Assembly: GCF_014303395.1 (NCBI RefSeq)
Contig: NZ_CP060298.1
Location: forward strand, 806,001 to 870,000
Origin: Nakamurella sp. PAMC28650
Lineage (GTDB): Bacteria > Actinomycetota > Actinomycetes > Mycobacteriales > Nakamurellaceae
Length of the DNA: 64,000 bases
Reading direction: 5' to 3'
Shown here: piece by piece, positions 1,516 through 29,010 of the stretch
Numbering within the stretch: position 1 is the stretch's first letter
How the letters are laid out: every line of letters starts with the position of its first letter
Translations under genes and position numbers: made by a program
Notes under the pieces: model-generated
What the model was told of the DNA's origin: nothing
The model's input: only the letters and a program-made list of their open reading frames with translations
Database searches by the model: none

Positions 1516-2499
1516 CTACTTGCGGCCCGGACTCCAGTTCATGCCCCACCCGTACTGGCGGTCGAGCACCGACTGACCACCGTTGATGTACTTGACCTCG
1601 CGCTGCACGACCAGGTCACCGTTGTTGTTGATCAGCTGCGCCACCGCGCAGATCCGGGCGGCCTGATCGCTTGCGTCGAGGCGCACCTCGATCTGGGGAC
1701 CGTTGATCGGGCTCAGGGTGACGACGCCGTCGACGGCGGCCCAGTTCGGTGCGCCCTCGTAGATCATCGCGAAGATCAGGATCCGACGGAACCGACCGGG
1801 CTGATCCAGGTTGATCGACATGTTCTCGCCCGAGGTCACCGCGCCGGTACGGTCGTCGCCGTCCAGCTTGATCCACGGCGCACGGTCCAGCGATCCGAAC
1901 GAGTTGCCCAGGGCCTGCACGACCCCCTTCGACCCGTCCGAGAGCTCGTAGAGGCAACCGAGATCCAGATCGACACCGCCTGAACCGCCGGCGGCCTGAG
2001 CCGCCAACCGCTTGAAGAATCCACCGGCCTTCTGACCCGACGGTGCCGCCGCCGCGCCCTGCGACCAGTTGAGATTGACGCGGATGTTGCCACTGCTCCC
2101 ACCGGTCTTGGTCAAGGAGATCTGCGGGGCCGAAGCAGTGAGCGAGACCTTCTGCAACGACACACCTCCGGCCCGGCTGGGTGCCGGCACGGATGCAGTC
2201 GGTTGGTAGACGGGCGGGCCGGAAGGCGGCGGGTAGTTGGCCGGCGCACTTGGCGGCGGGTAACCGGCCGCCGAGGCCGGCGGCGGCCAGGCCGCCGTCG
2301 GCGCCGGATAGGCAGAAGGCGTCGGTGGAGCCGGCGGGCGAGGAGCCTGCGGCAGGGGGGCGGGCGCGGCGGCCGCCTCGTCCTCTTCCGGCGGCGTGTA
2401 CCAGGACGGCAACCCGGAACCATTCGCAGCCGGGACCGGGGGCGCAGCCGGAGCCGCAGCCGGGGGCGTTGGACGCTTGCGCGTGTAATCGATGGCCAT
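1516..2499 (-). CDS. TerD-domain protein with long Pro/Ala-rich N-terminal linker
   Basis: TerD-family protein (Ca-binding, tellurium and general stress proteins). The first 110 residues or so are a Pro-Ala-Tyr-rich low-complexity segment (repeated PPPSAP/YPPPS blocks), followed by a TerD beta-sandwich of about 200 residues that starts near VSLQKVSLTAS and contains the VDLDLGCLYEL and IYEGAPNWAAVDG segments typical of the family. Two ATGs lie next to each other; 2499 is chosen because AGGAG then stands 6 nt upstream instead of 3. It is followed at 210 bp by a second, compact TerD gene on the same strand, as is common in Ter clusters. The linker may tether the domain to a partner or to the envelope, but no membrane segment is seen. 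Confidence 0.85.
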   Translation of the reverse strand: MAIDYTRKRPTPPAAAPAAPPVPAANGSGLPSWYTPPEEDEAAAAPAPLPQAPRPPAPPTPSAYPAPTAAWPPPASAAGYPPPSAPANYPPPSGPPVYQPTASVPAPSRAGGVSLQKVSLTASAPQISLTKTGGSSGNIRVNLNWSQGAAAAPSGQKAGGFFKRLAAQAAGGSGGVDLDLGCLYELSDGSKGVVQALGNSFGSLDRAPWIKLDGDDRTGAVTSGENMSINLDQPGRFRRILIFAMIYEGAPNWAAVDGVVTLSPINGPQIEVRLDASDQAARICAVAQLINNNGDLVVQREVKYINGGQSVLDRQYGWGMNWSPGRK

Positions 2500-2712
2500 C
2501 ATGTGCTCCTGTGCTCACTTGTTCGAAAATCTTGTCTCGCGAGGTCGTCCCGCGAGGTCGTGGGCGATCGAACCCGGCGCGGCGGACACACGAGCCAGCA
2601 GTGAGACAAGGCCAGAAGCCGGGGGCCCGCCGGACTCCGGCACCACCGATCTATCCCCGACGGCAGGTCGGGACGGCGGTACCGGAGCAGCGTCAGGCAG
2701 AAAGGAGTCGGG

Positions 2713-3288
2713 TCAGACGTTGACGCCGAAGTCGCGTCCGATGCCGGCAAGACCACTGGCGTAGCCCTGACCGATGGCCCGGAACTTCCACTCCGCACCG
2801 TTGCGGTACAGCTCGCCGAAGACCATGGCGGTCTCGGTGGAGGCGTCCTCGGTGAGGTCGTAGCGGGCGAGCTCGACGCTGTCGGCCTGGTTGACGACGC
2901 GGATGAACGCGTTCCGGACCTGCCCGAACGACTGCTGGCGGCTGTCGCCCTCGTAGATGGAGACAGCGAACACGACCGAGAGGACGTTCGGTGGCACCGC
3001 CGACAGATCGACCTTGACCTGCTCGTCGTCACCGTCCCCGCCACCGGTCAGGTTGTCACCGAGGTGCTCGATGGACCCGTCGGGCGAGCGCAGGTTGTTG
3101 AAGAAGATGAAGTACTGGTCGGACACGACCTTGTGGTTCTCACCCAGAGCCAGCGCGCTGGCGTCCAGGTCGAAATCCGCGCCGGTGGTGGCACGGGCAT
3201 CCCAGCCCAGGCCAACCGTGACCGCCGTGAGATTCGGGGCAGCTTTCGTCAGCGAGACGTTGCCACCCTTGGTCAGGCTCACACCCAT
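2713..3288 (-). CDS. terD: TerD family stress/tellurium-resistance protein
   Basis: Compact 191-residue TerD protein, the usual length for the family. It opens with [15 protein letters not shown], the standard TerD N-terminus, and carries the paired acidic loops (GADFDLDAS near 36-44; [12 protein letters not shown] near 85-96) that coordinate Ca in characterised TerD proteins. A strong AGGAGG lies 9 nt before the ATG. It is upstream of, and co-directional with, the Pro-rich TerD paralogue and close to the Ter-associated ligase/lyase/phosphoribosyltransferase genes, so it is probably the binding component of the same stress system. No lipid anchor or signal peptide is visible. Confidence 0.93.
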
Positions 3289-3627: not shown

Positions 3628-4854
3628 ATGTCCAGGAACTGGTCGGGACGCCTCACCAGGCGGCCACAGGATCAAGCCGCACAGGCCGCGCAGGATGGTG
3701 CTGTCGCAGCGTTCCTCGACCTGGACAACCGTCAGTCCTACGTCAAGGACGCCATCGACGCGGCCGGCGAGAGTTCCGTCGCCGACTCGGCGATGCTGCG
3801 CGAATGGGCGCCCGTCGCAGAGCGGAGCTTCGAGGCCTCCTCCCACTACCTGGCCACGGCCGAGAGTCATTCACTACTGGACGCTGCGGACCGCCCCACC
3901 GGCGTCGACCCGGTAGCGGCCGTGGCCGCCTTCAGCCAGGTGCACCAGGCGCTGGCCGATGCCGCAGTCGCTGTGGACGCCTTCTACCGCAAGCACTCCG
4001 TCGAACTCGAGAAAGTCAGATCGCTGAGAGCTGCGACGCCGCAGATCTCGGCAGACGCTCGCGCCTCGGCGGTCAGGGCCGAAGCCGAACTGACCAAGGC
4101 CGAGGCCGAGGGGTTCGCCTACCCCAGCGTCATGACGGCCGCCGGCGAGCTGGTCGATGCGCTCTCCTCCCTCAAGACGGCCGAGACTGTCGGCTCGCCC
4201 CTGGAGATCCGCCACACCGCGGCGGCCGTCCATGCGGCCGCCGACGCGATCACGAGCAGGATTTCCGCAGCCCGGTCGCTGTCCTCGACGGTGCGCGGGT
4301 CGCTGAGCAGCGTGAAGACCAGGATCGAGGCGGTGACGACCCGGCTGGGAACGCTGCCGACGACCAAGTCGGCGCTCCTGCGCGAGTTCTCGGTGGACTG
4401 CTCCAAGGATCTCAACGGGGCCGACGACCGCGCCCGGAAGTCGCTCCAGGACGCCCGCGGTGAGTGGGCCGCTGCCGAGACCGCACTGCGGGCCGGGCAA
4501 CCGGAACCGGCTTCCCACCATCTGACCACCGCCCGCTCCCGGCTGTCCGCGGCCGAGCACGACGGTGATTCGCTCGGCGAACGACTGCGGATCCTGCGAG
4601 CCACCAGACAGGATCCCGTGGCAGCGGCCAAGACCACCCGTTTCAAGCTTCGCGACGCCCAATTGCTCGTCGTCGACCGGGGTCTGGTGCGCCAGTGGGG
4701 TTCGGTGCTCGACGCGCAGTCCGCACGGATCGATCGCGCGACCGCCGAATTGACCGGCACCCACCCCGACTACTGGTCCTACCTCCAGACGCTGCAATCG
4801 GTCGAGGCCTTCGTCAAGAACATCATCGACCGGGTCCGCGGCGAGGCCAGGTAG
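3628..4854 (+). CDS. helical protein of unknown function in the Ter cluster
   Basis: Product of 408 residues that I do not recognise. It is Ala-, Arg- and Glu-rich and predicted almost wholly alpha-helical with heptad-like stretches (for example around 145-170 and 270-330), with no signal peptide, membrane segment or catalytic motif. The ATG at 3628 has AGGA 7 nt upstream. It diverges from the terD pair and converges on the ATP-grasp gene with no spacer: its TAG ends at 4854 and the opposite TGA begins at 4855. Position inside a Ter module suggests a structural or scaffold part of that system, but this rests on context only. Confidence 0.75.
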   Translation: MSRNWSGRLTRRPQDQAAQAAQDGAVAAFLDLDNRQSYVKDAIDAAGESSVADSAMLREWAPVAERSFEASSHYLATAESHSLLDAADRPTGVDPVAAVAAFSQVHQALADAAVAVDAFYRKHSVELEKVRSLRAATPQISADARASAVRAEAELTKAEAEGFAYPSVMTAAGELVDALSSLKTAETVGSPLEIRHTAAAVHAAADAITSRISAARSLSSTVRGSLSSVKTRIEAVTTRLGTLPTTKSALLREFSVDCSKDLNGADDRARKSLQDARGEWAAAETALRAGQPEPASHHLTTARSRLSAAEHDGDSLGERLRILRATRQDPVAAAKTTRFKLRDAQLLVVDRGLVRQWGSVLDAQSARIDRATAELTGTHPDYWSYLQTLQSVEAFVKNIIDRVRGEAR

Positions 4855-5946
4855 TCAGTCGGCCGCGTGGCCGGTCGGTGTTGCGGCGGCAACCATGGCG
4901 TCGACCGGCGGTTCCGCCGGTTGCGTCAACGCGATGACCGACGAGACCGTGACGTATTCGGCGCCGAGCGTGGGACGCAGCCGACCCGGATCCTGACCGA
5001 GCGCAACCCGGACGGCCGCCCACGGCAGGTTCACCCCGGCCAGCGAGGTCTGATACAGACCACCGGACGGCCGAGAATTGATCTCCAGCAGCGCAGGTCG
5101 GTCGTCGAACGAGCGGAACTGCACGTTGACCAGACCGTCGAGATCGAAGTGCTGCACCAGCTCCGCCGCCAACCGGGGGAGCCTGGGATCCCCGCCGATC
5201 ACCCGCTGCCGACCATTCTTCGTCCGAGGAACTGCCACCAGCGTCCGTCCGCGCTGGGCGAGGACATCAACGCTGGTCTCCGGTCCCGAGAGGTACGGCA
5301 TCACCATCAGGGCCGGAATCTTGACGCCGGCCGCCTCCGCCCCGGCCAACGCACAGCGCACCGTGTCCAGTCCCACCAGGGGGCCGACCGGCCCGAGCAG
5401 GCCGGCCAGGTCCGGTCCCGTCCTGGACAGGAAACGCACACCGTCGGCGCCGACCCCGGACGTGGGTTTGAGGATGAGGGGCTCGCCGATGGTCCAGAGA
5501 TCTTCGAGATCCGCGATCGCCGCATCGAACTCACCGAGCGTGCTGGCCACCCGCCACGGCGGAACCAAGGCGCTGCCGGAGAGCGCCAGATAGGTCGATG
5601 CCTTGTCGGCAAGCACGTCGACAGCCGCTGCAGGAGGGCAGATCAGCGCCGTACCAATGATTTTGAAATCCGCGGCCCGGTGCGCGACCAGCGATTGGCC
5701 GGCGACCGGCAGCAACACGTCGATGTCGTGCCGCAGGCACAGGGCCAACATCTCATCGACGAAGTCCGGATCGGTGACGACCGGTTCACGGAGACGGTGA
5801 TCACTGGCAGCGAGCATCGGTGAGAATGGATCGACGTGCGAGGAGAACAACGTCACGGGGATGCCGTCTTCGTTGTGTCGCAACATGTTCAGCAGATGAA
5901 CCGTTGTTGCATAGTTCCGGTTGAGCCAGATTCGAACTGATTCCAC
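4855..5946 (-). CDS. ATP-grasp ligase of the Ter-associated biosynthetic module
   Basis: ATP-dependent carboxylate-amine/thiol ligase of the Ter-linked ATP-grasp family. Seen in the 363-residue product: the N-terminal pre-ATP domain (VRIWLNRNYATTVHLLNMLR), the ATP-binding strand and glycine loop ILKPTSGVGADG (158-169), MPYLSGPETSVDV (216-228), and the metal-binding EINSRPSGG (288-296). A GTG at 5946 is chosen because family homology starts there and GGGAG lies 5 nt upstream; the frame stays open to 6093 but that part has no match to the family. It is transcribed away from the lyase-phosphoribosyltransferase-HAD operon, sharing a 181-bp divergent control region. It probably joins an amino-acid-like or carboxylate building block to the metabolite made by the neighbours; the substrate is unknown. 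Confidence 0.85.
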   Translation of the reverse strand: MESVRIWLNRNYATTVHLLNMLRHNEDGIPVTLFSSHVDPFSPMLAASDHRLREPVVTDPDFVDEMLALCLRHDIDVLLPVAGQSLVAHRAADFKIIGTALICPPAAAVDVLADKASTYLALSGSALVPPWRVASTLGEFDAAIADLEDLWTIGEPLILKPTSGVGADGVRFLSRTGPDLAGLLGPVGPLVGLDTVRCALAGAEAAGVKIPALMVMPYLSGPETSVDVLAQRGRTLVAVPRTKNGRQRVIGGDPRLPRLAAELVQHFDLDGLVNVQFRSFDDRPALLEINSRPSGGLYQTSLAGVNLPWAAVRVALGQDPGRLRPTLGAEYVTVSSVIALTQPAEPPVDAMVAAATPTGHAAD

Positions 5947-6127
5947 CTGTACTCCCGGCGCCGGCTCCTGGATTTGTCCTCCCCAGTTTAAACGGCCTGA
6001 GAACACCTGCCGACGCGATGTTCGTCTCCTCTCCCACTGCTGTTCACACCGGGATGCATCGAACCGGGACGAAAGGTCGAGGAGGTGAGGCACACTGGTT
6101 GCCCTGACCGCTATCGAGAGGACATCA
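5947..6127. promoter_or_regulatory. divergent control region of the Ter biosynthetic genes
   Basis: This 181-bp region separates the leftward ATP-grasp gene from the rightward lyase operon and must carry both promoters. A relatively AT-rich patch occurs near 5985-5993 (CAGTTTAAACGG context). No clear -35/-10 pair or operator palindrome was found by eye. Confidence 0.45.
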
Positions 6128-7282
6128 GTGCGTCACTTCGACCACCTGGCGCAGGACCAGCGCGACGAGTTGTTCTCGGTGGGTCCGGGCGAGTTCGACC
6201 GTGACAGTTCCAGAACCGTGCTGGCCAATGCCCTCGGCGCGACCCTCTACGTCCCGGGGGTACGCGATGACCTCGTCAAGGCCATCAACAAGCGGGCGGC
6301 CGAGGGTGTTCGATCGGTCGTCATCGACCTGGAAGATGCCGTCGCGGACGACGACGTCGAACAAGCCCTGGTCAATGTGAACTGCGCACTGACCACGCTG
6401 AGCAGGTCTGAGCAGCAGACGCTGGTCTTCGTGAGAGTCCGTACACCTGAACATATCCACCAGGTCATCGATGGAATTGGTGACGCCGGTTCTGCGCTGA
6501 CCGGCTTCGTCCTGCCGAAGTTCTCGGCCTCGACGGGCGCCCGGTTTCTCGGCGAGATCCTCGCTGGATCCGAACGTCTCGGCTCCAGGCTCTTCGCGAT
6601 GCCCGTGCTGGAGACACCGGACGTCATCTACCGGGAGACCCGTGACGACGCGTTGTCGGCGATCCGTGATCTGCTCGGTCAGTACCGGGAGACCGTTCTG
6701 GCGGTCCGCTTCGGTGCGACGGACCTCTGCGGGCTGTATGGGATTCGACGTGACCGTGACCTCAGCATCTACCACGTCGGGGTGGTGGCGGAACTGATCT
6801 CCGAAGTGGTCAACCACCTCGGACGTGCGGACGGTACCGGCTACGCCATCAGCGGTCCCGTGTGGGAGTACTTCGCCGGGCACGAGCGGATGTTCCGTCC
6901 ACAGCTACGGGCTACGCCCTTCGAGACCCGCCACGCCAAGTCGTTCCGGCACCAGTTGGTGACCAACGACGTCGACGGACTGATCCGCGAGATCGTGCTG
7001 GACCGGGCGAACGGGTTGACCGGCAAGACCGTCATCCATCCCTCGCATGTCTCTGCGGTGCATGCACTCTCGGTCGTTCCACACGAGGAGTTCAGTGATG
7101 CCAGCGACATCCTGGAGTCCGCGGAGGCCGGTGTTCGTGCGTCCGGCTACCGGAACAAGATGAACGAGATGCGTCCCCATCGTCGGTGGGCGGAGCGGAT
7201 CCGTGACCGCGCCGAGGTTTTCGGCGTGGCCAATCCCGACGTCTCGCACGTCGAGATCCTGACCGCCCTGCTGGATCGGTGA
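6128..7282 (+). CDS. HpcH/HpaI-CitE-like TIM-barrel C-C bond lyase
   Basis: TIM-barrel lyase/aldolase of the citrate lyase beta/HpcH superfamily, in the branch linked to Ter systems. The 384-residue product shows LYVPGVRDDL (40-49), the metal-ligand motif VIDLEDAV (65-72), a substrate arginine segment FVRVR, the strand FAMPVLETPDV and AVRFGATDLCGLYG near 193-206. The Glu and Asp expected to bind Mg are present. Translation starts at GTG 6128 with GAGAGG 6 nt upstream. Its stop overlaps the start of the next gene (GTGA), so the two are coupled. It likely makes or cleaves a carbon-carbon bond in the precursor of the Ter metabolite. Confidence 0.87.
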   Translation: MRHFDHLAQDQRDELFSVGPGEFDRDSSRTVLANALGATLYVPGVRDDLVKAINKRAAEGVRSVVIDLEDAVADDDVEQALVNVNCALTTLSRSEQQTLVFVRVRTPEHIHQVIDGIGDAGSALTGFVLPKFSASTGARFLGEILAGSERLGSRLFAMPVLETPDVIYRETRDDALSAIRDLLGQYRETVLAVRFGATDLCGLYGIRRDRDLSIYHVGVVAELISEVVNHLGRADGTGYAISGPVWEYFAGHERMFRPQLRATPFETRHAKSFRHQLVTNDVDGLIREIVLDRANGLTGKTVIHPSHVSAVHALSVVPHEEFSDASDILESAEAGVRASGYRNKMNEMRPHRRWAERIRDRAEVFGVANPDVSHVEILTALLDR

Positions 7283-9888
7283 CCATGGCCGGATCGACCT
7301 CGCTCGGTACCTGGATGTCGGACCGATTCGGTGTCGTGCTGCGGACCACCTCCTCCCCCGTCGGACTGACCATCGAGGATCTGGTCGGTGTTGCGGCGCG
7401 CCGAAATCCACGCCGCGCTCATCTACTGGTGTCGACGGTGCTGGGCAAGCACATCCCCGTCGATCCCGAGGTGGTGACGGCAGTCGGCCGCTTGTTGGGT
7501 GAAATGGTCCGCGCGGCAATGGGATTTCCCGGGCAGAAGAGCGAGTGGGCCGAACCCGCGCGGGCGGCGATCCGGGAAGGTCGACCCGGGGCGCTGCTGG
7601 AGATGCTGGACCGCGAGTTGGACGCTCGTGCCCAGACCCCCGTCCTGGTGATCGGGTTCGCCGAGACCGCCACCGGCCTCGGTCATCTGGTCGCCGACCA
7701 ACTGCGGGCCGCCTGCTACCTGCATTCCACCCGACGACCGGTCGCCGGAGTGGAGATCGCAGGTCGATTCGAGGAGGGTCATTCGCACGCGACCAGCCAT
7801 CTCCTGCTTCCCGTGCCGAACACGCTGCTGGACGGGGCGGACCTGCTCGTGCTGGTCGACGACGAACTCTCCACCGGCCGCACCGCGATGGGGACCATCG
7901 AGCAGGCGCACGCCCGTCGGCCCCGGGGCCGATACGTGGTGGCGAGTCTGATCGACCTCCGCGATGCCGATGACGAGGCCGAGATGCGTTCCCTGGCAGA
8001 GCGTCTGGCCTGCCGGATCGACGTGGTGTCGTTGGTCCGTGGCTCGGTCGACCTCCCGGACGACCTGACCGCGACGGTGGCCGCCGAGATGGCCGGGTTG
8101 GACGCCGAACCGACCGGGCCGGTCGGACCCGGTGCGTCGGCCGGTGGGCTCGCCGGGCCCAAGGTGTCGGCGACCGTCGCCCTGGTCGAGATCGATTGGC
8201 CTGTAGATCTTCCCGACGGTGGTCGGCACGGATTTCTCGACGCAGACCGACTGCGATTCGATCGTGCCACAGGAAGGGCCGGAGAGATCCTGACCGAAGC
8301 TGTGGTACGCGCCCTGGAGGGTTCGGCGAGCCGCAAGGTCACGGTGGTGGGTACCGAGGAGTTGATGTATCTACCCCTGCGGCTGGCTCAGCAGTTGAGT
8401 CGTCATCGGCACCTCGAAGTGAGTTTCCAGTCGACCTCGCGCTCGCCGGTCCTGGCCGTGGACGACGCGGGGTATCCGGTCCGCCGTCATTTCCGCTTCG
8501 CCGACTCCGAGGGCGATCCCGACGTGCCGCGGTTCCTCTACAACGTGCACGCGCTGCACACCGATGATCGACCGTCGGATCTGGTGGTGCTGGTGACGGA
8601 TTCGGCCGCCGACTCCGCCGTGCTCCACGGCCCGTCCGGTCCGGTCGCCGCCCTGCGCTCCGCCGGCCTTGACGTGCTGCTGGCGATCATCGGGCCGGTC
8701 GACCCCGGTGCCCTGGCAACCGCCCGCACGGTCCGGCGCGTTCGACCGCCCCGGGGCCTGCCGGAGCCGCTGGTCGGGCCGGGGTTCGGGTCCTACGCTG
8801 CTGACGAGGTCAGGTGGCTGCTCACCGATCTCTCCGATCTGGACCTGGAGGGTGAGGTGGCCGATCGGGAGGCCGCGATCCAGGCCGGCACCGCGCACTA
8901 CGCCGAATCCCTGCCCGTGGAATTCCAGCCCGACCAGAATTATCAGGACCTTTTCGACGTGGTATTGGCCGATTCGGCGGAACGCTTGGCCACGGCCGTG
9001 GGTCTGGTGACGGAACTGGTGCTGGCGGAGCGTGGCCAGGACATCGTGCTTGCATCATTGGCTCGCGCCGGAACCCCGATCGGGATATTGATGCACCGCT
9101 GGGCTCTGTTCCGGCATGATCTGACGGTCCCGCACTATGCTCTGTCGATCGTCCGTGGCCGGGGAATTGATCCGGTGGCTCTGAGATACATTGCCGCACA
9201 TCATGATTCAAGCAAAGTGGTGTTCGTCGACGGATGGACGGGCAAGGGGGCGATCGCCAAAGAGCTGACGTCGGCGCTGGCAGCGGTGCGGCGCGACTAC
9301 GGGCTCGATTTCAACGACGACCTAGCGGTCTTGGCCGATCCTGGTCATTGCGTCCGGACGTTCGGTACTCGTGATGACTTTCTGATTGCCTCTGCGTGTT
9401 TGAATTCGACGGTGTCGGGATTGGTGTCGCGTACCGTTCTCAACGATGCCTATCTGGCGCCCGGACAATTCCACGGTGCGAAATTCTATTCCGAACTCGC
9501 CTCCGGTGACGTATCGAATGTGCTGCTGGACAGGGTCGCTGCAGCGTTTCCAGCGGTCGTGGACCGCGTGTCGATGGAGTTGCCGACGTTGGCGACGTGC
9601 GACCGCGAGCCGACCTTCGCCGGATGGCGCGCGATCGAGGCCATCGCGGCCGAGTACGGGATCGAGTCGGTGAACTTCGTCAAACCCGGTGTCGGAGAGA
9701 CTACCCGGGTGCTGCTGCGCCGGGTCCCCTGGCGAATTCTGGTCAAACAGGAGGGCAATCCGGATCACGAGCATCTGCGCCTGCTGGCCCAGCAGCGGGG
9801 GGTACCGGTCGAGGTTCGTCCTGACCTGCCGTACTCGTGCGTCGGACTGATCCGCCGCATGTCCACATCAGAACCAGGGGAAAGTTGA
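7279..9888 (+). CDS. fused double phosphoribosyltransferase (PRTase-TRSP + StiP-like PRTase-PELOTA)
   Basis: An 869-residue fusion combining enzymes of the Ter nucleoside-metabolite pathway. N-terminal half: a phosphoribosyltransferase with the PRPP loop LLVLVDDELSTGRTA (189-203) and a GFAETATGLGH segment (126-136), followed by a TRSP-type C-terminal domain to about residue 540. C-terminal half: a second phosphoribosyltransferase of the PRTase_1/StiP type (about 550-780, with VVFVDGWTGKGAIAKEL near 647-663) and a PELOTA-like RNA-binding end (about 790-865). The GTG at 7279 overlaps the upstream stop; an ATG at 7285 is an alternative. From memory the two halves are often separate genes in other Ter loci, so the single polypeptide is notable. 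It is followed 6 bp later by the HAD gene. Confidence 0.85.
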   Translation: MTMAGSTSLGTWMSDRFGVVLRTTSSPVGLTIEDLVGVAARRNPRRAHLLVSTVLGKHIPVDPEVVTAVGRLLGEMVRAAMGFPGQKSEWAEPARAAIREGRPGALLEMLDRELDARAQTPVLVIGFAETATGLGHLVADQLRAACYLHSTRRPVAGVEIAGRFEEGHSHATSHLLLPVPNTLLDGADLLVLVDDELSTGRTAMGTIEQAHARRPRGRYVVASLIDLRDADDEAEMRSLAERLACRIDVVSLVRGSVDLPDDLTATVAAEMAGLDAEPTGPVGPGASAGGLAGPKVSATVALVEIDWPVDLPDGGRHGFLDADRLRFDRATGRAGEILTEAVVRALEGSASRKVTVVGTEELMYLPLRLAQQLSRHRHLEVSFQSTSRSPVLAVDDAGYPVRRHFRFADSEGDPDVPRFLYNVHALHTDDRPSDLVVLVTDSAADSAVLHGPSGPVAALRSAGLDVLLAIIGPVDPGALATARTVRRVRPPRGLPEPLVGPGFGSYAADEVRWLLTDLSDLDLEGEVADREAAIQAGTAHYAESLPVEFQPDQNYQDLFDVVLADSAERLATAVGLVTELVLAERGQDIVLASLARAGTPIGILMHRWALFRHDLTVPHYALSIVRGRGIDPVALRYIAAHHDSSKVVFVDGWTGKGAIAKELTSALAAVRRDYGLDFNDDLAVLADPGHCVRTFGTRDDFLIASACLNSTVSGLVSRTVLNDAYLAPGQFHGAKFYSELASGDVSNVLLDRVAAAFPAVVDRVSMELPTLATCDREPTFAGWRAIEAIAAEYGIESVNFVKPGVGETTRVLLRRVPWRILVKQEGNPDHEHLRLLAQQRGVPVEVRPDLPYSCVGLIRRMSTSEPGES

Positions 9889-9894
9889 ACACCG

Positions 9895-10743
9895 ATGAGA
9901 CCTGATCAGGCCGAATCATCGAGCGGGGCGCCGACGATGATCGCCAGTGACCTGGATCGAACGCTCATCTACTCCCCCGGCGCACTGCAGCTATCGGCGG
10001 AGGACGACGATCCACCCCACCTGATCTCGGTCGAGATCCTGGATGGGCGTCCGAACTCGTTCATGACGATGGCGGCCGCCCGCCGTCTGGCCGAGTTGTC
10101 ACGGGTGGGCACGTTCGTGCCGACCACCACCCGGACGATGGCTCAGTACCATCGCGTCCGATTCCCAGGCGTGTCGCCGATGTACGCGATCACCAGCAAT
10201 GGCGGGAACATCCTTGTCGACGGGCAACCGGATGAGAACTGGCATCGATCCACCGCGTCTGCGATCGCCGCATGCGGCGCCACCCTCGCGGAGGTCAAAC
10301 AGGAGTTACGCGTCCGAAGTCAGGACGACTGGGCCATCAAGCGACGGGTCGGTGACGATCTGTTCTGCTACATCGTGGTCGATCTGCAGTACCTACCCGA
10401 TGACTTCATCGAGTCGTGGACGGCATGGTGCGCCGAACGCGACTGGCGTGTGTCGGTCCAGGGACGCAAGATCTATGCGATCCCGCTTCCCCTGTCGAAG
10501 GAAAGGGCGATGACCGCCGTGGCTCGCCGCCTCGGCGCCCACCGGGTGGTGGCCGCCGGAGACGGGGCGCTCGATGCCGGGTTCCTCTCCGCTGCCGACG
10601 CCGGCATCCGTCCACCTCATGGCGAGTTGGCGGCGGTCAACTGGCAGCATCCGACCGTTCGGGTCGCCGAACGCGTCGGCGTCCTGGCCGCGGACGACAT
10701 CACCGATTGGTTGGCCGACCAGCTTGGGTTGGGTTCGGACTGA
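9895..10743 (+). CDS. HAD-superfamily hydrolase of the Ter module
   Basis: HAD phosphatase of the Cof/sucrose-phosphatase-like branch, probably removing a phosphate from the pathway product. Motif I is SDLDRTLIY with nucleophile D19 and general acid D21; motif II T is in the FVPTTTRT segment; a conserved Lys lies in the LSKERAM segment; motif III is the Gly-Asp-Gly-Ala-Leu-Asp segment near 222-227. The 282-residue length is normal. A GGGGAAAG stands about 10 nt before the ATG at 9895; an internal ATG at 9937 is just ahead of motif I and cannot be excluded. It ends the three-gene rightward operon and converges on parB. Confidence 0.87.
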   Translation: MRPDQAESSSGAPTMIASDLDRTLIYSPGALQLSAEDDDPPHLISVEILDGRPNSFMTMAAARRLAELSRVGTFVPTTTRTMAQYHRVRFPGVSPMYAITSNGGNILVDGQPDENWHRSTASAIAACGATLAEVKQELRVRSQDDWAIKRRVGDDLFCYIVVDLQYLPDDFIESWTAWCAERDWRVSVQGRKIYAIPLPLSKERAMTAVARRLGAHRVVAAGDGALDAGFLSAADAGIRPPHGELAAVNWQHPTVRVAERVGVLAADDITDWLADQLGLGSD

Positions 10744-10922: not shown

Positions 10923-11957
10923 CTAGGCCCGGTCAGCTCCGCCGTTCCGCCGCTTGTCCAAGGCGTCCGGTGCCATGATGGCAATGATTCGCTCGAGGTC
11001 GTCAACCGTGGCAAATTCCACGATGACGCGTCCCTTCTGGCGCCCCAGCTCGACTTTGACCCTGGTGTCGAACGTGTCCGAGAGAGCGTTCGCCAACTTG
11101 GCCAGTCCCGGCATGACGAGCTTCTTGGGCGTGGCCCGCTTCGGCTTGGCCGTCCGACCGGCCATCAGCACCACTGCCTCTTCGGTACCGCGGACGGAGA
11201 GACCTTCGGCCACCACCCGGGTGGCCAGCTCCTCCTGATCGTCGGGATCGTCCAACGAGAGCAGAGCGCGGGCATGGCCGGCCGACAGCACACCGGCTGC
11301 CACGCGCCGTTGTACCGGGACCGGCAGCTTCAAGAGGCGAATCGTATTGGAGATGACCGGTCGGCTGCGACCGATCTTCGACGCCAACTCCTCCTGGGTC
11401 ACGTCGAACTCCTGCAGGAGCTGCTGGTAGGCAGCAGCCTCCTCGAGCGGATTGAGGTTTGCGCGGTGGATGTTCTCCAGCAGCGCGTCCCGCAGTAGCT
11501 CGGCATCCTCGGTCTTGCGAATGATCGCCGGGATCGTCTTCAGGCCGATGCGCTGGGCGGCTCGCCAACGGCGCTCCCCCATGACGAGTTCGTAGCCGCT
11601 CGCCACCTGCCGCACCACGATCGGCTGCAGGAGTCCGAATTCACGGAGCGAATGTTCCAGCTCGTTCAACGCATCCTCGTCGAACACCGTCCTCGGGTTG
11701 CGGGGATTGGGTTTGATGGCGCCGATCGGCACCTCTTCGTACCGGGGTGCGTCAGGAGACAATTCCGCCTTCCGGTCGTCGGGTGCCGACGGGCCATCGT
11801 CGCCGACGGCCCTGCCTGTCGCGGCGGCGTCGGGATCGGGTTCATCGGGGCGCTTCGCGGCACCACCCATGAAGACGTCGGACACGACGGTGGTCTGCGG
11901 TCCGGTCGGAATGAGTGCGGCCAGGCCGCGGCCGAGGCCACCTTTGGGCTTGGTCAT
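10923..11957 (-). CDS. parB: chromosome-partitioning protein ParB
   Basis: CTP-dependent clamp that binds parS and spreads on DNA for chromosome segregation. The 344-residue product begins [17 protein letters not shown], the conserved N-terminal peptide that stimulates ParA. It contains the CTP-binding box GERRWRA (127-133), ENIHR (161-165; the second box is more often ENxQR), and the DNA-binding helix-turn-helix with [23 protein letters not shown] (188-210). The ATG at 11957 overlaps the parA stop as ATGA, indicating translational coupling. The frame is open further upstream but only as antisense shadow over parA. Four exact parS sites are present nearby. Confidence 0.97.
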
Positions 11958-12853
11958 GAAGGCTCCTTTGCGCCGCGTGCGGCGATCTCCCGTGCGGCAT
12001 CCAGATAGCTCATCGCCCCGCGCGAGCCGGGGTCGTACGTCATCACCGACTGACTGAAGCCGGGTGCCTCGGAGATCTTGACCGAGCGCGGTATCACCGA
12101 GGCCAGGACCTTGGGGCCGAAGTGATTGCGGACCTCGTTGGCGACCTGATCCGCGAGCTTCGTCCGGCCGTCGTACATGGTGAGCAGGATCGTGGACACG
12201 TCGAGGGTCGGGTTCAGGTGTTGCTTGACCAGATCGATGTTGCGGAGCAGTTGCCCTAGACCCTCGAGCGCGTAGTACTCGCACTGGATCGGGATCAGCA
12301 CCTCACGGGTGGCGACCATCGCGTTCACGGTCAACAAGCCGAGCGACGGTGGGCAGTCGATGAAGACGTAGTCGAACTCGGCCTCGACGCCGTCGATCGC
12401 CTTCTTCAGACGGGACTCGCGCTCGTCCATCGAGACCAGTTCGATCTCTGCGCCGGCAAGATCGATGGTGGCGGGGATGCACCCCAGACGAGGGGCATCC
12501 GGACAGGTCTGAATGGCCTCCGCAGCGGTGTACTCCCCGATCAGAACCTCGTAGATCGAGGGTGTTCCGGTCGTCCGTTCCACCCCCAGGGCGGTACTTG
12601 CGTTGCCTTGGGGGTCGAGATCGATGACCAGCACATGAAGACCGGCCAACGCCAGCGCCACTGCGATGTTGACGGTGGTGGTGGTCTTGCCGACTCCACC
12701 CTTCTGGTTGGCCACACTGAACACCCGGCGTTTGCGCGGCCTCGGCATGGTCAGTTCGCCGCTGCGAACCTTCACGGCCTGACGCGCTGCCCGCGCAATG
12801 GGCGTGTCGTCGATCTCCTCTGTTTCACGTGAAACATCGGTCTCGAAACCCAC
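11954..12853 (-). CDS. parA: chromosome-partitioning ATPase ParA
   Basis: Deviant-Walker ParA ATPase that forms the nucleoid gradient used to move ParB-parS complexes. The P-loop KGGVGKTTT (about 51-59), LDPQGNAS and DCPPSLG are all visible. The GTG at 12853 is chosen because AGGAGG sits 4 nt upstream; an in-frame ATG at 12913 has no good ribosome binding site, and the internal ATG at 12748 would drop the [12 protein letters not shown] segment that actinobacterial ParA proteins keep. Residues Val-Ser-Arg-Glu-Thr near the start are the translation of an embedded parS site. Forms a two-gene operon with parB. Confidence 0.95.
12821..12836. promoter_or_regulatory. parS site 1, inside the 5' end of parA
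   Basis: Perfect 16-bp palindrome TGTTTCACGTGAAACA, the canonical bacterial parS. It lies in codons 6-12 of parA and encodes Val-Ser-Arg-Glu-Thr, a feature shared with mycobacterial ParA. Confidence 0.97.
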
Positions 12854-13062
12854 TCGACCTCCTGGTGTGAGGGCCGCCGCGCGTCGGGATACCGACGGAA
12901 GCTCGCGACCCATCTCGTGGATCTTGCCCGTGAAGACACTACGCGAGATGAGTATGGCCTACCCGTGGTCAGGACCGGGGCGCCCATCCACATGGGCGAA
13001 CCTGTCCCGTGCAGCATGGAGGTGCGCGGTTGAAGAACGTCTGAGCCGGTCGGGTCTTGGCG

Positions 13063-13144
13063 GCTCAAGTCCTGCGGGGCTCAGGTCCTCCGGTGCTCAG
13101 GTCCTGCGGGGCTCAGGTCCTTCCGGGGGTCAAGTCCTGCAGGG
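13063..13144. repeat. five imperfect 16-17 bp tandem repeats
   Basis: Units beginning GCTCAGGTCCTGCGGG (or with AAGTCCT, GTCCTCC and GTCCTTC variants) start at 13063, 13079, 13095, 13111 and 13128. They lie in the gene-poor region downstream of the first parS site. No function is evident. Confidence 0.75.
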
Positions 13145-14340
13145 CGGCAGACCTGAGGCATGCGGCCCGGGCGGGTGTCGATCGCGGCAACCCCCGGTGG
13201 GGACTCAGGGATCCCTTGTCGGAACTCTTCGGGCTCCCTACTCGCGCCGAGGAACCAGGCGGGCTGCCGGATCCCGTCGTGCGGTGCTACCAGCGCGCCA
13301 CCGAGACGTCCGGGGTCACTGCTACCCGTGGCGCCCTGCCGGGCGCTTAGTTCCTGATTCGAAGTGCTCCGCTGCTGTAGGTCCAAGCGTGCTGCGGCCC
13401 CCACTGCTGCTCTCACGGTCCGTGCGGGGCCACTCGTTCCGGAAGTGGAAGCTCTACATTGCCCTCGATCGCGCGACTGACGGTGCTCGTTGCGCGGGGC
13501 GTCGCCTACACGCAGACGGGCGGGTGAACCCAGTAGGTCGGTGGGTGGGCCCGCACCCAGGCACGGGTGGCTGTCATCACGCCGTCCCCTGCTCATCGCA
13601 GCAGCCCAGTCAATGCTCTCGTTGTCCGCGGGGACCAGCCGACGGAGTCCTGTAACGGCGCCCCCGCCGGTGGTTGGGGAAGGTCGGATCGTTGTCGGTG
13701 TCCGTTCAGGTCCTGAGGTCGGTCGAAGCCTCGCCATCGCCCGGCCATTGGCGTGGCTACCCGCGCGGTTCGGAGCCCATGGCGAGTCTCGATGGCGGTG
13801 TCTGGCCCGGCACATGGGTAGACATCGTTCTTGGCAACGGCCTGGGCCGCCGGCTCGTCCGGCAGTGTCGGCTTGAACGCGGAATCCCAACCGTCATCAC
13901 CCAGGATCGGGATCACCACTGGCCCGCGCAGAGCCACTCCGTGACTCTGCCTGAGCAGACCAACCCGCCGGCCCCTGGGCCAGTGATCGCGGTTTTCGCC
14001 GGCAAGACGGTCTTCGTGCCCGCGGCCGGACTGGACCACGATTGCGGTGCCCGCCCTTCCGCGAAGTGCCCCACTCATTGGGTCTACTAGTGGACCACCA
14101 CTTCCGTCATCTCCCGCGAGAGGTTTTCCTACTTGCAGGTCCTCCCCGGTCTACGCCCGAAGGGGTGTTGCGTCATCCCGTCGGGGCCCGGGTGGGTTCA
14201 TTTGGGAGGTCGACCCAGGAAGGACCTTGTCGCTCCGGGACCACTCAGAGCTCGCCGGATCCCGCCGCCGGCGACGGCTCGATCCAGATCGTCTCGTTGA
14301 GTTCCGTCCGCACGGGGCCTCTCACCGGCAGGATGGGCCA

Positions 14341-14356
14341 TGTTTCACGTGAAACA
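14341..14356. promoter_or_regulatory. parS site 2
   Basis: Exact TGTTTCACGTGAAACA palindrome in non-coding DNA between parA and rsmG. Confidence 0.97.
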
Positions 14357-14731
14357 TGGCCCTCCGGCACGAGCGGATCCTGATCGACCATCGCACGGCC
14401 TGACGTGGTCTTCGCGTCCCCGACCAACAACTTCGATGGTGACGATATGCAAGCTTTGGAGCGGACGTGATCCGCTGGCCGGGTCCATTTCGACGTCCGA
14501 CGCTGCTCGAGGCTGAGTCGCAATGCGGTGCCCGCCGCCAACCGTGCGGCGCATCGTGGGAGGTGCACCCTGTGACCCGAGCGGGTTCGGGTCCTGGTCG
14601 CCAGGGTTGGGGCTGCTGGTCGCGTGCTCGGACACGGACCGTTCCAGTTTCCTGGTCAGTTGCATACGACCTACGGTCGGGTGGGGCCAGGTTCATGTAC
14701 ATCAGCACTTACCCTTGGCCGCCGGTACCCA

Positions 14732-14747
14732 TGTTTCACGTGAAACA
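14732..14747. promoter_or_regulatory. parS site 3
   Basis: Exact TGTTTCACGTGAAACA palindrome, 391 bp from site 2. Confidence 0.97.
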
Positions 14748-15085
14748 TCGGCGGGGGCGTCACCTCAGATCGCACAGTTTGTGGGTGCGCTCCGAGCACG
14801 GGCCCGGCTCCGCCGCCTGCGAGACACAGGACCCGCGCCTCGGCGTAGGTACGGCAAGATGGAGTCCGCCATCGGTGTGCGGAACCGCCAGGGAGGCTTC
14901 ACCACGAACCCCGCTCAGGCGCCGTGGTCACGGGTGGTCAAGATCCAGGTTCACCCCCTGGCTGCAGCGAGCAGGTGCACTTGTTCTGTTCAAACAGGAT
15001 GTCGACACCGGATGGTCCGCCGCCTAAGTCCCGGCAGGCCATCGATGCGCAGAACCAGATCAGTAGACGTGCTGCCCGAACCCGA

Positions 15086-15101
15086 TGTTTCACGTGAAAC
15101 A
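15086..15101. promoter_or_regulatory. parS site 4
   Basis: Exact TGTTTCACGTGAAACA palindrome, 354 bp from site 3. No further exact copy was seen elsewhere in the window. Confidence 0.97.
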
Positions 15102-16391
15102 GCTCGGAAGGGAGATCCTCCATCTCCGAGCTACTGCCCGTGAGTCTGACCAAGAGCCGCGCCGAGTGCCGGTCGGCTGGTCCCCCAGGCCTGCCATCAT
15201 CCACCATTGACAAGCTTCATCAATCGCTGCACTCGGCGCGCGCCGACTCGATTCTGGTTGGCCAACGGGCACCGCTTTGCGCAGCGCGTCTGAACCACGA
15301 ACACCCGTCCCGGGCCACCGTCGACGATCTCGTGGGGCGTCGTGGGTCCTCCAGCGGAGACCACTCTTACCTCGCTGATCGGACCAAACGAAAGCCGAAC
15401 GAAAGCCTCGGACAACCCAGGGCAGGACCTGACCCGTGGCCGATCGGGCAGTCCGCGTCGATACTGCTGTGCACATGATGGTGGCCGACCACGCCCGCTC
15501 CGCCGCCGACTGAATCTGGCCCCGCAACGTCCGTCGATCCCGCCCGACCGATGGCGAGCGGGCCAGATGATTCACGGACAATGGACACACGTGACACACG
15601 TGGGCGGCGATCCACCACCGATACGATTCAATCCACACAATGCCGGGGTACCGGTTGATGGTGAAATCACACCCCTCCCCCGCACAGACCCATCAGTCGG
15701 CTTTGCCAGGAAATCACCTTGGCCGGGAAATCACCGTGCCCATTCACCACCCGCGAATTTCGACGAACTCACCGTCAGCCCCAGGACACTTCCGCGGCTC
15801 ACCGCATCATCGGCCGAATCCCACATCAGACCGAACCCACGTCAGAGAACCGCGTCCGGACGCATCTTCCGACCTGGCGGCTACACATCAGAGAAATCGC
15901 CACGTTCACCCGCCGCCGAACATCGGCGGAATCGGGTACTGGCCGATGAATAGTTCGACGTGGCGCGAACTGGCCCACACGACTGCGGGGGAGTGCCCCC
16001 ACGCCGCACCGACCGCTCCGAGGCGATTCACATCGTCCATGTAGCGATGTGCGCACCAGTGGACGTTCGTCGCGATCGTCTTCCCCAACCATCCATGGAG
16101 GGACAACGAGTACCATCGGCGAACCGCGGATGGAAACGTCACGGTGACAATTCGAGGCCCGGCCTCATCCTCGCTCAGCAGGCACCTCCCAGCCGTCCTC
16201 CAGGACCGCACTCGGGCACGATCAGCGCCAGGCGGATCTCATGGCGCGCCGGCCCATCCGCGCCTTGACTGCACTTGGGAATTTACAGGCGGAGGATGCT
16301 GAATGCAGATCGCAAATACCAACGAGCTAATGGCCCCACTCCGACCATGGTGACAATCGCACGATCACCCGACGGATCAGCGGCGACCGGA

Positions 16392-17192
16392 TCAGCGACG
16401 ACCAGGGGGCCGATCAGCTCGTCCTCGAGTCCTACCTACATTCGTATCCGCCCCGGATTTCGCGACCGCGATCCGACGGCCGCGAATCACGACGGTGGCC
16501 GGATCGACGAACTCACCACCGACCGTCACCACCTCCAGGTCTACGACTCCGGAATTCGCCACTGCCACACCATCACGGAGGATCTCGTCCGGTGCGCTGG
16601 AACCCTTGAGGCCCAACAGTTCTCCACCAATCCGAAGCAGAGGCGCCGACCATGCCGCCAATTTCTCCAATGGCGCCACCGCCCGTGAGGTAACTACATC
16701 AGCATCACCGCACTCGCCGATGACCTGCTCGGCCCGACCTCGAACCACACGACAATTCGTCAGGCCCAGGTCCGACACCACCTGCTGAAGAAATACAATT
16801 CGCCGCTCCAGCGGCTCGACGAGAACAAACTCGCAATCTGCGCGAGCAATGGCAAGGGGGATACCCGGCAAACCGGCCCCGGAGCCGATATCGAGCACCC
16901 GACAGCCTGATGTCAGCAAAGTCCCTACGACCGCCGAATTGAGAACGTGGCGACTCCACAGGCGACCCGTCTCACGCGGGCCGATCAGGCCGCGCACAAC
17001 CCCGTCGACGGCCAGGCTCGCCACATACCGGCGAGCGAGTCCCACTCGATCTGCGAATACCGACTGCGCCGACACCGGTTCGATCTCGACCCCGGCCGGA
17101 TCCAAGCCGGGCTCCGCACGGTCATCACGCGCGACACCGCTCCGCGTGCTGCTATTCGGCCCAGATGCCGGGCCGACATCACCATCGGTCAT
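16392..17192 (-). CDS. rsmG: 16S rRNA (guanine-527-N7) methyltransferase RsmG
   Basis: SAM-dependent methyltransferase that modifies G527 of 16S rRNA; its loss gives low-level streptomycin resistance in many bacteria. The SAM-binding VLDIGSGAGLPGIPLAIAR and acidic-loop FVLVEPLERR are clear, as is the upstream RLWSRHVLNSAVV segment. The ATG at 17192 has GGAG 8 nt upstream; a GTG at 17201 is also possible. The first 45 residues or so and the last 20 (Arg/Gly-rich) are outside the conserved domain. It follows jag in the conserved leftward origin set, but the downstream parAB pair is about 3.5 kb away rather than adjacent. Confidence 0.95.
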   Translation of the reverse strand: MTDGDVGPASGPNSSTRSGVARDDRAEPGLDPAGVEIEPVSAQSVFADRVGLARRYVASLAVDGVVRGLIGPRETGRLWSRHVLNSAVVGTLLTSGCRVLDIGSGAGLPGIPLAIARADCEFVLVEPLERRIVFLQQVVSDLGLTNCRVVRGRAEQVIGECGDADVVTSRAVAPLEKLAAWSAPLLRIGGELLGLKGSSAPDEILRDGVAVANSGVVDLEVVTVGGEFVDPATVVIRGRRIAVAKSGADTNVGRTRGRADRPPGRR

Positions 17193-17362
17193 TCGGGCCA
17201 CTCCATTCCACCGTCAGGTCTGGGCGTCACACGGCCGACCGGAAGCAATTCACCTGCCGGGTCACCACTTCCACCACGAAGCTCTGGCCCGACGAACATT
17301 GCCGACGACAGGGGCCCCACCCGTCGAACGCCCGGCGCAGGCACACCGATCGCCGTGCCCCG

Positions 17363-20316: not shown

Positions 20317-20841
20317 GGTGATCTCTCCAAGGTTCGAACTGCGGGACTACGTGCTCCGCCGGTGGACGTCATGCCGTCGACCTGCCGTTGTTCGGCCGGT
20401 TCGCACACGAACAGCTCGGACCGGTGGGATGTCCCATCGGCCGCGACGCCGTTCATCACCAGGACAAACCGCTTCAGGCCATGGTTCACACGGCATGCAG
20501 CCCCCGGCACCGTACGGGTCTGAACCCAGGGTAGAGACAGAAGGTCGTAGGGGTCAAACCCGGCGGTCCCAGACTTTCGCGACACGCCGATCGAAATACT
20601 TGCCTGGACCGGGCACCTTGTGGGATCGACCGATGTGTTGTTAGCTTTCCCCGGCCACGGCCCGCAGAATCGGACCGCCACCCGTACGTGATCCCAACGC
20701 CCAAGCTGCTCGGCTGTTGACCGACTGCTGCCGACGTCGTAGACCGCTGTGTGATAGGTGTCGACCGACAGTTGTCCACACCCGGTGGACAACTCTGTGG
20801 ATGGACGACGACGGCACGGCAGGAACGGGAGGGATTTCTCA
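20317..20841. promoter_or_regulatory. rpmH-dnaA divergent region with dnaA control elements
   Basis: This 525-bp divergent gap holds the promoters for rpmH and dnaA. A possible dnaA promoter is TTGACC at 20717-20722, 17 bp, then TAGACC at 20740-20745. Just downstream lie one exact DnaA box TTGTCCACA (20772-20780) and an opposite-facing copy GGTGGACAA (20784-20792) with one mismatch, a likely autoregulatory site. The -10 match is weak, so the promoter itself is tentative. The remainder has no recognised feature. Confidence 0.5.
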
Positions 20842-22386
20842 GTGGCGGACGATCCTGCCGACCTACAGGCCGTGTGGCAGCAGGTGGTGGCGGATCTTTC
20901 CTCCTCACTTTCCTCCCACCAGCGCGCTTGGCTGGCCATCACCGATCTCGTCGGCCTGATCGGCACGACCGCGTTGATCGCAGCCCCGTCGGGTTTCGCC
21001 AGGGACACCATCGAGCGGACACTTCGCGAGCCGATCACCGCCGCGCTGTCTGCGCGCATGCAGCTCCCGATCAGTCTGGCCGTGACCGTCAGCGAGAGTG
21101 CCGCTGCATCGCCGGGCCCCGAGCTGGCTGGTCTGGAGTCGGGGGACGGCATCGCCGGCCCGATGACAGCGGGCAGCGCGCTCGGTCATGTGAACGGTGG
21201 GATCAACGGCGCCGTCAACGGCGCGTCCACAGCGTCGAAGGACACCGACGACGACGACTACGTCGACGAGGAGGCCGACGCCCTTGCGACGGTCACCGAG
21301 ATCTGGCCGACCTACGCGGTGCGCCGCGACACGGCACCGGCCAGCTCTGCACAGACGCGGTTGAACGACAAGTACCACTTCGAGACGTTCGTCATCGGCT
21401 CGTCCAACCGCTTCTCGCACGCGGCCGCTGTTGCGGTGGCCGAGGCGCCGGCGGTCGCCTACAACCCGCTCTTCATCTGGGGCGACTCCGGCCTGGGCAA
21501 GACCCACCTGCTGCACGGGATCGGGCACTACGCCCAGCGGCTCTTCCCCGGCATCCGCGTGCGGTACGTCTCCAGCGAGGAGTTCACCAACGATTTCATC
21601 AACTCGCTCCGCGACGACCGGAAGGTGGCCTTCCAGCGCCGCTACCGCGACGTCGACGTGCTGCTGGTGGACGACATCCAGTTCCTGGAGGGCAAAGAGG
21701 GCACCCAGGAGGAGTTCTTCCACACCTTCAACACCCTCTACAACGCCAACAAGCAGATCGTCATCTCCTCTGACCGGGCCCCCAAACGGCTGGAAACCCT
21801 GGAGGACCGACTGCGGACGCGCTTCGAGTGGGGCCTGACCACCGATATCCAGCCGCCGGAACTGGAAACGCGCATCGCGATCCTTCGCAAGAAGGCCTCG
21901 CTGGACGGCCTGAACGCTCCTGACGACGTCATGGAGTTCATCGCCAGCCGGATCGAGCGCAACATCCGTGAGCTCGAGGGCGCACTGATCCGTGTGACGG
22001 CGTTCGCGTCGCTCAACAAGCAGCCCGTGGACCTGTCGCTCGCGCAGATCGTGCTCCGGGACCTGATCAGGGACTCGGTGTCCAACGACATCGACGCCGC
22101 GACGATCATGGCGGTCACGGCTGAGTACTTCAACGTGACCCTCGACGAACTCTGCGGGCAGTCCAAGACGAGGGCGATCGCCTCGGCACGGCAGATGGCC
22201 ATGTACCTGTGCCGTGAGCTCACCGACCTGACGCTGCCGAAGATCGGCACCACCTTCGGCGGCCGCGACCATACGACCGTCATGCACGCGGCCAAGAAGA
22301 TACGCACCGAGATCGCCGAACGACGCCAGACCTACGACCACGTCCAGGAGCTCTCGGCCCGCATCCGCGACCGTTCGCGTCGCTGA
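20842..22386 (+). CDS. dnaA: chromosomal replication initiator DnaA
   Basis: AAA+ initiator that binds DnaA boxes and melts the origin. In the 514-residue product: domain I ([16 protein letters not shown]) at the N-terminus, an acidic Asp/Glu-rich domain II linker (about 110-160), Walker [10 protein letters not shown] (214-222), Walker [12 protein letters not shown] (about 271-281), and the DnaA signature with [14 protein letters not shown] (about 470-483) in domain IV. The GTG at 20842 with GGGAGG 8 nt upstream is preferred over an upstream in-frame GTG at 20758, which overlaps the DnaA boxes. Confidence 0.98.
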
Positions 22387-24592: not shown

Positions 24593-24619
24593 TGCCATGC
24601 GCGGGGCCGACTCTGGGTG

Positions 24620-24699
24620 GCGTGGATCAACTTCCCAGGCATGGACGAAAATGACGACTCCTGTCACTCTCGTCCCAAATCGAGCATGTTGATCCATGC
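24620..24699. repeat. palindromic dispersed element, copy A (shortened)
   Basis: Begins GCGTGGATCAACTTCCCAGG and ends ATGTTGATCCATGC. It aligns with the reverse complement of the copy at 26589-26687 over its full length but lacks about 20 bp inside the second arm. It is located between dnaN and recF. Confidence 0.8.
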
Positions 24700-24824
24700 A
24701 GGGCCGGGACAAACGGGTGCGGACCCAGCGCTCGCCGAACCAACGAGCACCGACGCCCCAGACACAGACCTGGCGGATGCGGATCGGGGAAAAGTGCTGA
24801 TCCCGGTGGGCAGGGGCTGAGACG

Positions 24825-26524: not shown

Positions 26525-28927
<2,403 letters not shown>

Positions 28928-28939
28928 ACGACGTGGGGG

Positions 28940-28968
28940 CCCAAGGGTTCTCACCGAGAACCTGTGGG
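28940..28968. terminator. stem-loop in the gyrB-gyrA gap
   Basis: GGTTCTC and GAGAACC pair around the loop ACC, extended by CCCA/TGGG after a 2-nt internal mismatch. No T-run follows, so it may be a weak terminator, an attenuator or an RNA-processing site between gyrB and gyrA. Confidence 0.4.
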
Positions 28969-29010
28969 CTGACCTCGTGGTGCCCGGTTCTGCCGATCAA
29001 GCCCGCCCGT

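Follow-up and report, generated by a model that had tools for sequence, protein, structure and literature searches.

A single open reading frame in a 64,000-nucleotide stretch of the chromosome of Nakamurella sp. PAMC28650 (NZ_CP060298.1, positions 806,001 to 870,000; hereafter the window, part of a single-contig genome of 5.63 Mb) encodes two phosphoribosyltransferase (PRTase) units on one chain of 869 residues. The protein is probably a bifunctional two-PRTase enzyme in which neighbouring genes of a known, poorly characterised Ter-linked stress pathway of bacteria have been fused and whose halves work in one complex. The fusion itself is an ordinary variant, about as common among relatives as the split form. 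The sequence-only reading, an earlier description of this DNA made from its letters, had placed two PRTase units on one chain, and this was confirmed, as the frame at 7279-9888 has no internal stop codon. When compared with Pfam, the protein matched PRTase_2 at residues 35-255 (224.7 bits), TRSP at 313-448 (105.7 bits), StiP at 504-753 (333.4 bits) and PELOTA_1 at 781-859 (121.7 bits), all far over the cut-offs of 25-29 bits. It carries the motifs VDDELSTGRT, TSRSP and FVDGWTGKGAI. No solved homologue of the protein was detected by sequence beyond one row at chance level (E 0.29).

Anantharaman, Iyer and Aravind reportedly described the Ter-linked biosynthetic module in 2012. A nucleoside-like metabolite is the 2012 prediction for this module as cited in the accessible portion of PMC8115787, and the module is also cited in that of PMC4633105. 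The fusion is not mentioned in the accessible portions of PMC8115787, PMC7159879 and PMC4633105, a set that does not include the 2012 paper. The link of the locus to the Ter-associated pathway, drawn in the sequence-only reading, was right, judging from the matches to PRTase_2-TRSP, StiP-PELOTA, the lyase, ATPgrasp_Ter and TerD; its coordinates and family names were also correct, one TerD label excepted.

Among 298 sampled genomes of the window's order, 67 carry StiP, and these comprise 32 with the fused form, 33 with the split form and two that were not callable (G033, with a frame change inside StiP, and G178, whose first half is absent from the contig). The 32 include three genomes with partial contigs (L073, L079 and L103), of which L073 was scored as fused by the first reading alone, a stricter E-value having found no first half. 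Of 17 congeneric genomes in the sample, 13 carry StiP, counting the window; five are fused (the window, L088, L091, L093 and L095) and eight split. The nearest relative, L088, is fused, with 63% and 80% identity over the two halves. In a wider collection of 53 relatives, obtained by a search that took the window's protein as its seed and is not representative, 28 were fused, 24 split and one not callable, the fused forms belonging to Nocardia, Cellulomonas, Streptomyces, Blastococcus and others. In the phylum sample, PRTase_2 exceeded its cut-off in 14 of 296 genomes and 200 bits in 12 of these; 11 of the 12 matches lie in open frames of at least 863 residues, and that of G067, a split pair, in one of 620 residues. 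The counts of fused and split forms cover actinomycetes and three plasmid loci, which were read among 40 listed of 2567 matching records.

A rare or unique fusion was rejected by the 32 fused against 33 split genomes of the order. The sequence-only reading had regarded the fusion as special, which it is not, being one of two forms of nearly equal frequency; a form this frequent is no discovery on its own. Two of the observations that this reading had named as refuting it tell against the special status. A stop codon or frame break between the halves in related strains is present in eight of the 13 StiP genomes of the genus, mostly with a frame change, and the fused form is a common one, accounting for about half of the genomes (32 of 67).

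The PRTase_2-TRSP and StiP-PELOTA units are adjacent in 65 of the 65 judgeable genomes among the 67 with StiP, and also in one Rhizobium locus, while in two gammaproteobacterial loci a HAD gene lies between the PRTase units. Unlike in those two loci, the gene order in actinomycetes, where HAD is not between the PRTases, makes direct fusion possible. Of 55 actinomycete split pairs, 50 have the stop codon of the first gene overlapping the start codon of the second by 4 nucleotides as RTGA, a 1-nucleotide overlap being an equally possible start in one of the 50; within the genus the overlap is found in six of eight pairs, L089 and L097 lacking it. The frame offset of the second gene was 2 in 54 of 58 split rows and 0 in 52 of 52 fused rows. 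Because of the RTGA overlap, a small indel could join the two genes, and the overlapping split genes are probably translationally coupled. According to the title of PMC10666635, overlapping unidirectional gene pairs often code for subunits of heteromeric complexes; the split partners may well be physically paired. In 38 fused rows, the linker between the alignment ends measures 24-127 residues.

A tree was constructed from 110 StiP halves (52 fused and 58 split), omitting seven exact duplicates, the 49-residue stub L103, and L001, L050, L073, L076, L079, L102 and L106, which were affected by contig ends, a frame change or the lack of a first half. The form changed 15 times on this tree, when compared with a mean of about 37 for shuffled labels, and none of 500 shuffles gave a number as low, near-copies adding to this clustering. 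The starred branches alone force at least six changes of form, demonstrating that the split/fused change has been repeated. When irreversible gains from split to fused were counted, 15, 12, 8 and 6 were obtained with no branches collapsed and with those of support below 80, 90 and 95 collapsed, respectively. All three outgroup loci, on plasmids of Rhizobium, Pseudomonas and Klebsiella, have the split form; rooting the tree as fused would cost 23 losses, versus 15 gains from a split root. Fusion thus seems to have evolved several times, and most of the changes were presumably fusions. The simplest reading is that a coupled pair was ancestral and was joined repeatedly via small indels, a direction that we infer; for a fused gene to break up again at a precise RTGA overlap is much less probable than joining.

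Among the rows with an adequate first half (50 of the 52 fused and 55 of the 58 split ones), the phosphoribosyl pyrophosphate (PRPP) loop of PRTase_2, VDDE..TG.T, is kept unchanged by 49 fused and 46 split rows. In L015, the one fused exception, A replaces G, and the nine split exceptions are eight with S for T and one with I for V, DDE being kept in all. Six split rows that are close on the tree (L109, L111, L112, L113, L116 and L119) have TSG for STG in this loop. FVDGWTGKGAI, the StiP loop, is retained by 50 of the 52 fused rows and by 56 of the 58 split rows. The preservation of the loops in nearly all fused rows indicates that fusion took place without decay of either site.

In its predicted fold, the PRTase_2 half is APRT-like (7y94_B, Z 11.2, root-mean-square deviation (rmsd) 3.1, 176 aligned residues), and by this fold together with its loop VDDELSTGRT the half is a predicted type I phosphoribosyltransferase. 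The VIA row 8a0c_A (Z 11.3) of the same search was discarded for its rmsd of 21.9. The StiP half has a variant loop, VDGWTGKG, and gave VIA matches of Z about 10 to PyrR, HGPRT and CriT, with weak results in Foldseek. The model of StiP-PELOTA alone reached a predicted local distance difference test score of 87.5 and a predicted template modelling score (pTM) of 0.89. Its VIA list was headed by Bcs3 (8a0m_D, chain residues 637-972, Z 10.4, rmsd 4.1, 203 aligned), and residues 637-972 of 8a0m_D fall within the CriT domain according to the numbering in the accessible portion of PMC10299916. PyrR (4p81_B, Z 10.3, rmsd 3.2, 144 aligned) was tied with it, as was HGPRT. The best Foldseek E-value for the StiP model belonged to IscS (probability 0.77, TM 0.22), an unrelated fold that was taken as chance.

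StiP-PELOTA-like proteins were also observed in phages. The Acinetobacter phage vB_AbaM_ME3 (234.9 kb) encodes at KU935715 209145-210203 such a protein with 30.5% identity to residues 503-859, and no match to the PRTase_2-TRSP half was found in this phage. The Acinetobacter phage protein was also the single strong row of a viral fold search. A closer StiP-PELOTA-like protein, with 40.3% identity, is present in the 15.4-kb phage record MT836648.

The neighbourhood of the PRTases was counted in 87 of the 110 tree rows, three plasmid loci among them, whose flanks reach 4 kb or more on the upstream and 1.5 kb or more on the downstream side; L089 lies just outside the set of 87. Matches were found to the lyase in 84 loci, to HAD in 85, to TerD in 83 and to the TerA-like protein in 46, and an ATP-grasp of the window's type adjoins the PRTases in 7. 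Genome-wide, strong ATPgrasp_Ter matches occur in 21 of the 67 StiP genomes, within 5 kb of StiP in six of them. Strong here means at least 90 bits, a line that we placed in the empty range from 64.3 to 94.8 bits, and adding the class of 59-64 bits raises the count to 32 of 67. The family cut-off of ATPgrasp_Ter was passed by 48 of 71 genomes, and also by 12 of 14 control genomes. The conserved core consists of the lyase, PRTase_2-TRSP, StiP-PELOTA and HAD, and the survey suggests that this order has a smaller core, in which the ATP-grasp is optional unless its place is taken by a distant type. Of two lyase patterns, one was present in only 31 and the other in only 4 of 99 relatives, and no claim is made on lyase residues. 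On a plasmid of Rhizobium sp. Pop5 (L085), a small cluster of PRTase_2, StiP and HAD-like genes was observed at 7173-10429; the 17.5 kb read there gave no match to the window's lyase, ATP-grasp or TerD.

From these observations, the following scheme can be proposed. Both halves, each with a PRPP-type loop, would most likely act successively or on each other's product within one complex. PRPP, presumably a substrate of both, would serve to put ribose-5-phosphate on an acceptor to whose making the C-C lyase contributes, and the HAD protein would then take off a phosphate, so that a nucleoside-like or ribofuranosyl product may result from steps in about this order. The sequence-only reading had expected joining to fix the stoichiometry of the units and to help order the pathway; the former follows trivially from a single chain, whereas the latter was not demonstrated.

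Several observations weigh against this scheme. The StiP loop VDGW contains just one of the two usual acidic residues. The model of the fused protein reached a pTM of 0.63 versus 0.89 for StiP-PELOTA alone, and hence no fixed arrangement of the halves is predicted; likewise, the variable linkers speak against one rigid shared active site. The position of the HAD gene between the PRTases in the two gammaproteobacterial loci indicates function without direct fusion. The second HAD motif, GDGxxD, was found in just 34 of 107 aligned relatives, and no activity of these proteins is known from the accessible literature. The tree was a quick one with SH-aLRT as its sole support and with long end branches flagged. 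The fused rows L026, L015, L095 and L141 stand on such branches, their placement being unsure, and L026, L095 and L141 are each scored as a single gain, which makes the exact number of changes soft.

The first alternative, which we regard as a serious possibility though somewhat doubtful, is that the fusion has no functional meaning: an overlapping pair is one indel away from joining, flexible linkers make the joining neutral, and each PRTase works apart from the other on a substrate of its own. The frequent RTGA overlap (50 of 55 split pairs), the wide range of linker lengths and the coexistence of fused and split forms within one genus are all as expected from neutral joining. A neutral label would not be expected to cluster on the tree as it does, although near-copies contribute to this, nor would the units be expected to stay adjacent in all judgeable StiP genomes of the order and in the Rhizobium locus, or to remain together in the two gammaproteobacterial loci with HAD between them.

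Another explanation, unlikely in our view, concerns the chemistry: StiP may be an O-ribosyltransferase of the CriT or glycan PRTase kind paired with HAD, the pathway yielding a ribofuranoside instead of a nucleoside. CriT of Bcs3 does head the VIA list, and a HAD match lies near StiP in nearly all of the 87 loci. A PRTase with a HAD phosphatase is a known recipe for PRPP-derived O-ribofuranosyl transfer in the accessible portion of PMC10299916, and the same recipe is described for other glycans in that of PMC11127046. Against this explanation, the PyrR and HGPRT structures are tied with CriT (Z 10.3 and below), Foldseek was weak for the StiP half with the IscS fold as its best E-value, and a HAD phosphatase is also expected after a nucleotide-type step. 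The tie of CriT with the base PRTases in the fold match leaves room for a ribofuranoside product. A PRPP-driven double ribosylation was also considered and appears quite improbable; here PRTase_2 would ribosylate one acceptor, StiP-PELOTA would be a CriT-like O-ribosyltransferase, the C-terminal PELOTA segment, labelled as RNA-binding, would serve the enzyme and not RNA, and HAD would trim the phosphate. If this were true, the signal for TerD proteins would be a ribofuranoside, not a nucleoside. An assembly error joining two genes, for which one might cite the split form being common in the genus (8 of 13), deserves next to no credence and was rejected, as the fusion recurs in 32 of 67 genomes, the nearest relative L088 included, and 52 of 52 fused tree rows are in frame.

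The reading of the protein as a bifunctional enzyme with its halves in one complex is also of practical use. The repeated joining and the RTGA overlap in most split pairs are good comparative evidence that the PRTases belong together, perhaps in one complex, and the fused forms are convenient single-chain enzymes for reconstituting the Ter-linked pathway.

Features of the window around the fused PRTase gene (positions are those of the window)
Feature	Position	Strand	Basis or remark
TerA-like protein	1516-2502	-	E 8e-51 to K. pneumoniae record L087
TerD	2713-3288	-	PF02342, 279.5 bits
408-residue protein, perhaps coiled coil, between TerD and ATP-grasp	3628-4854	+	without family match
ATP-grasp (ATPgrasp_Ter)	4855-6093	-	PF15632, 131 bits; divergent from lyase
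C-C bond lyase, CitE/HpcH-like TIM barrel	6128-7282	+	PF15617 C-C_Bond_Lyase, 395 bits
Fused protein PRTase_2-TRSP-StiP-PELOTA_1	7279-9888	+	869 residues, one frame, without internal stop
HAD-type phosphatase (predicted)	9895-10743	+	sub-threshold TIGR01484, E 2.7e-4; DLDRT and GDGALD
ParB (open frame; true start probably further in)	10923-12284	-	label by eye
ParA (open frame)	11954-12913	-	label by eye
Four exact parS sites	12821, 14341, 14732, 15086 (span 12821-15101)	.	pattern match

The genes surrounding the fused gene are listed in the table. The stop codon of the lyase gene overlaps the start of the fused gene by 4 nucleotides (GTGA), and the HAD gene begins 6 bases past the stop codon of the latter. 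The HAD protein gave no Pfam match at E of 0.001 or below, Hydrolase_3 reaching E 0.061; we take its DLDRT and GDGALD to be HAD motifs. DxDxT is kept in 106 of its 107 aligned relatives. Its homologues include the HAD proteins whose genes separate the two PRTases on the plasmids of Pseudomonas (blastp E 5e-9) and Klebsiella (E 1e-7); a second Pseudomonas HAD gave E 0.39.

The sequence-only reading had counted two TerD genes. The label stood for the gene at 2713-3288 and fell for that at 1516-2502, whose product had no Pfam match even at E 5 and is called TerA-like from its match to L087, at the place of the TerA gene there by order. Searches of Pfam at E 0.001 and of PADLOC and PHROGs at E 0.01 gave no match for the 408-residue protein, and tblastn matches to it were observed in 28 of the 87 Ter-linked loci, in many cases in the interval from TerD to the lyase. 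It is a candidate Ter-associated component, unless the matches reflect coiled-coil composition. A TerC gene beside another TerD was located at G000:C1:1519995-1521560, about 700 kb from the window's StiP; the genomes of nine further members of the genus have a TerC match of this kind no more than about 8 kb away from StiP. PADLOC models of anti-phage defence gave no match at E 0.01 for the seven proteins submitted, and membership in a defence system was rejected on this basis; PHROGs gave no match for four proteins.

That parAB adjoins the Ter block, as the sequence-only reading had pointed out, is true, and four exact parS matches accompany it, when compared with a mean of 0.00 in 100 shuffles. 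The genes at 10923-12913 are taken by eye to be those of ParB and ParA. Genes at 20758-31720 are presumably dnaA, dnaN, recF, gyrB and gyrA, named by eye from their translations; a search with a DnaA-box pattern gave 0 matches. Between parA and a gene at 16392-17201 (minus strand) that by eye we assume to be rsmG-like, about 3.5 kb (12913-16392) contain three exact parS sites, and no gene was recognised there. In the stretches read, the Ter block adjoins parB in the window, L088, L089, L091 and L093, which makes five of the genus's 13 genomes with StiP. The location beside parB is shared by part of the genus and is not a property of the system.

Compared with known systems, the locus resembles the Ter-linked module most closely, having PRTase_2-TRSP, StiP-PELOTA, the C-C lyase, ATPgrasp_Ter and HAD beside TerD and a TerA-like protein. 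It differs from that module in carrying the two PRTase units on one chain and in the distance of its TerC (with a TerD), and from the Pseudomonas and Klebsiella plasmid loci in that HAD follows StiP, whereas theirs lies between the PRTases. The split pairs of the genus (L089, L090, L092, L094 and L096-L099) share the domains, the order and the flanking lyase and HAD genes, and differ in that a stop codon and a shift of frame separate their halves. The VDDE..TG.T loop and APRT-like predicted fold of the PRTase_2 half are those of APRT and OPRT, to which the 869-residue protein adds a TRSP domain and the StiP-PELOTA half. Bcs3 CriT, of the Haemophilus influenzae type b capsule, uses two separated acidic residues for ribose, D680 and E818, in the accessible portion of its description. 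The predicted fold of StiP may be a PRTase fold like that of CriT, its top but tied match, and StiP resembles both CriT and the glycan PRTases in having a HAD phosphatase partner; unlike CriT, it stands outside a capsule polymer context, with base PRTases tied in Z. The likeness of the modelled StiP to CriT may thus be taken as a lead on its chemistry, not as membership.

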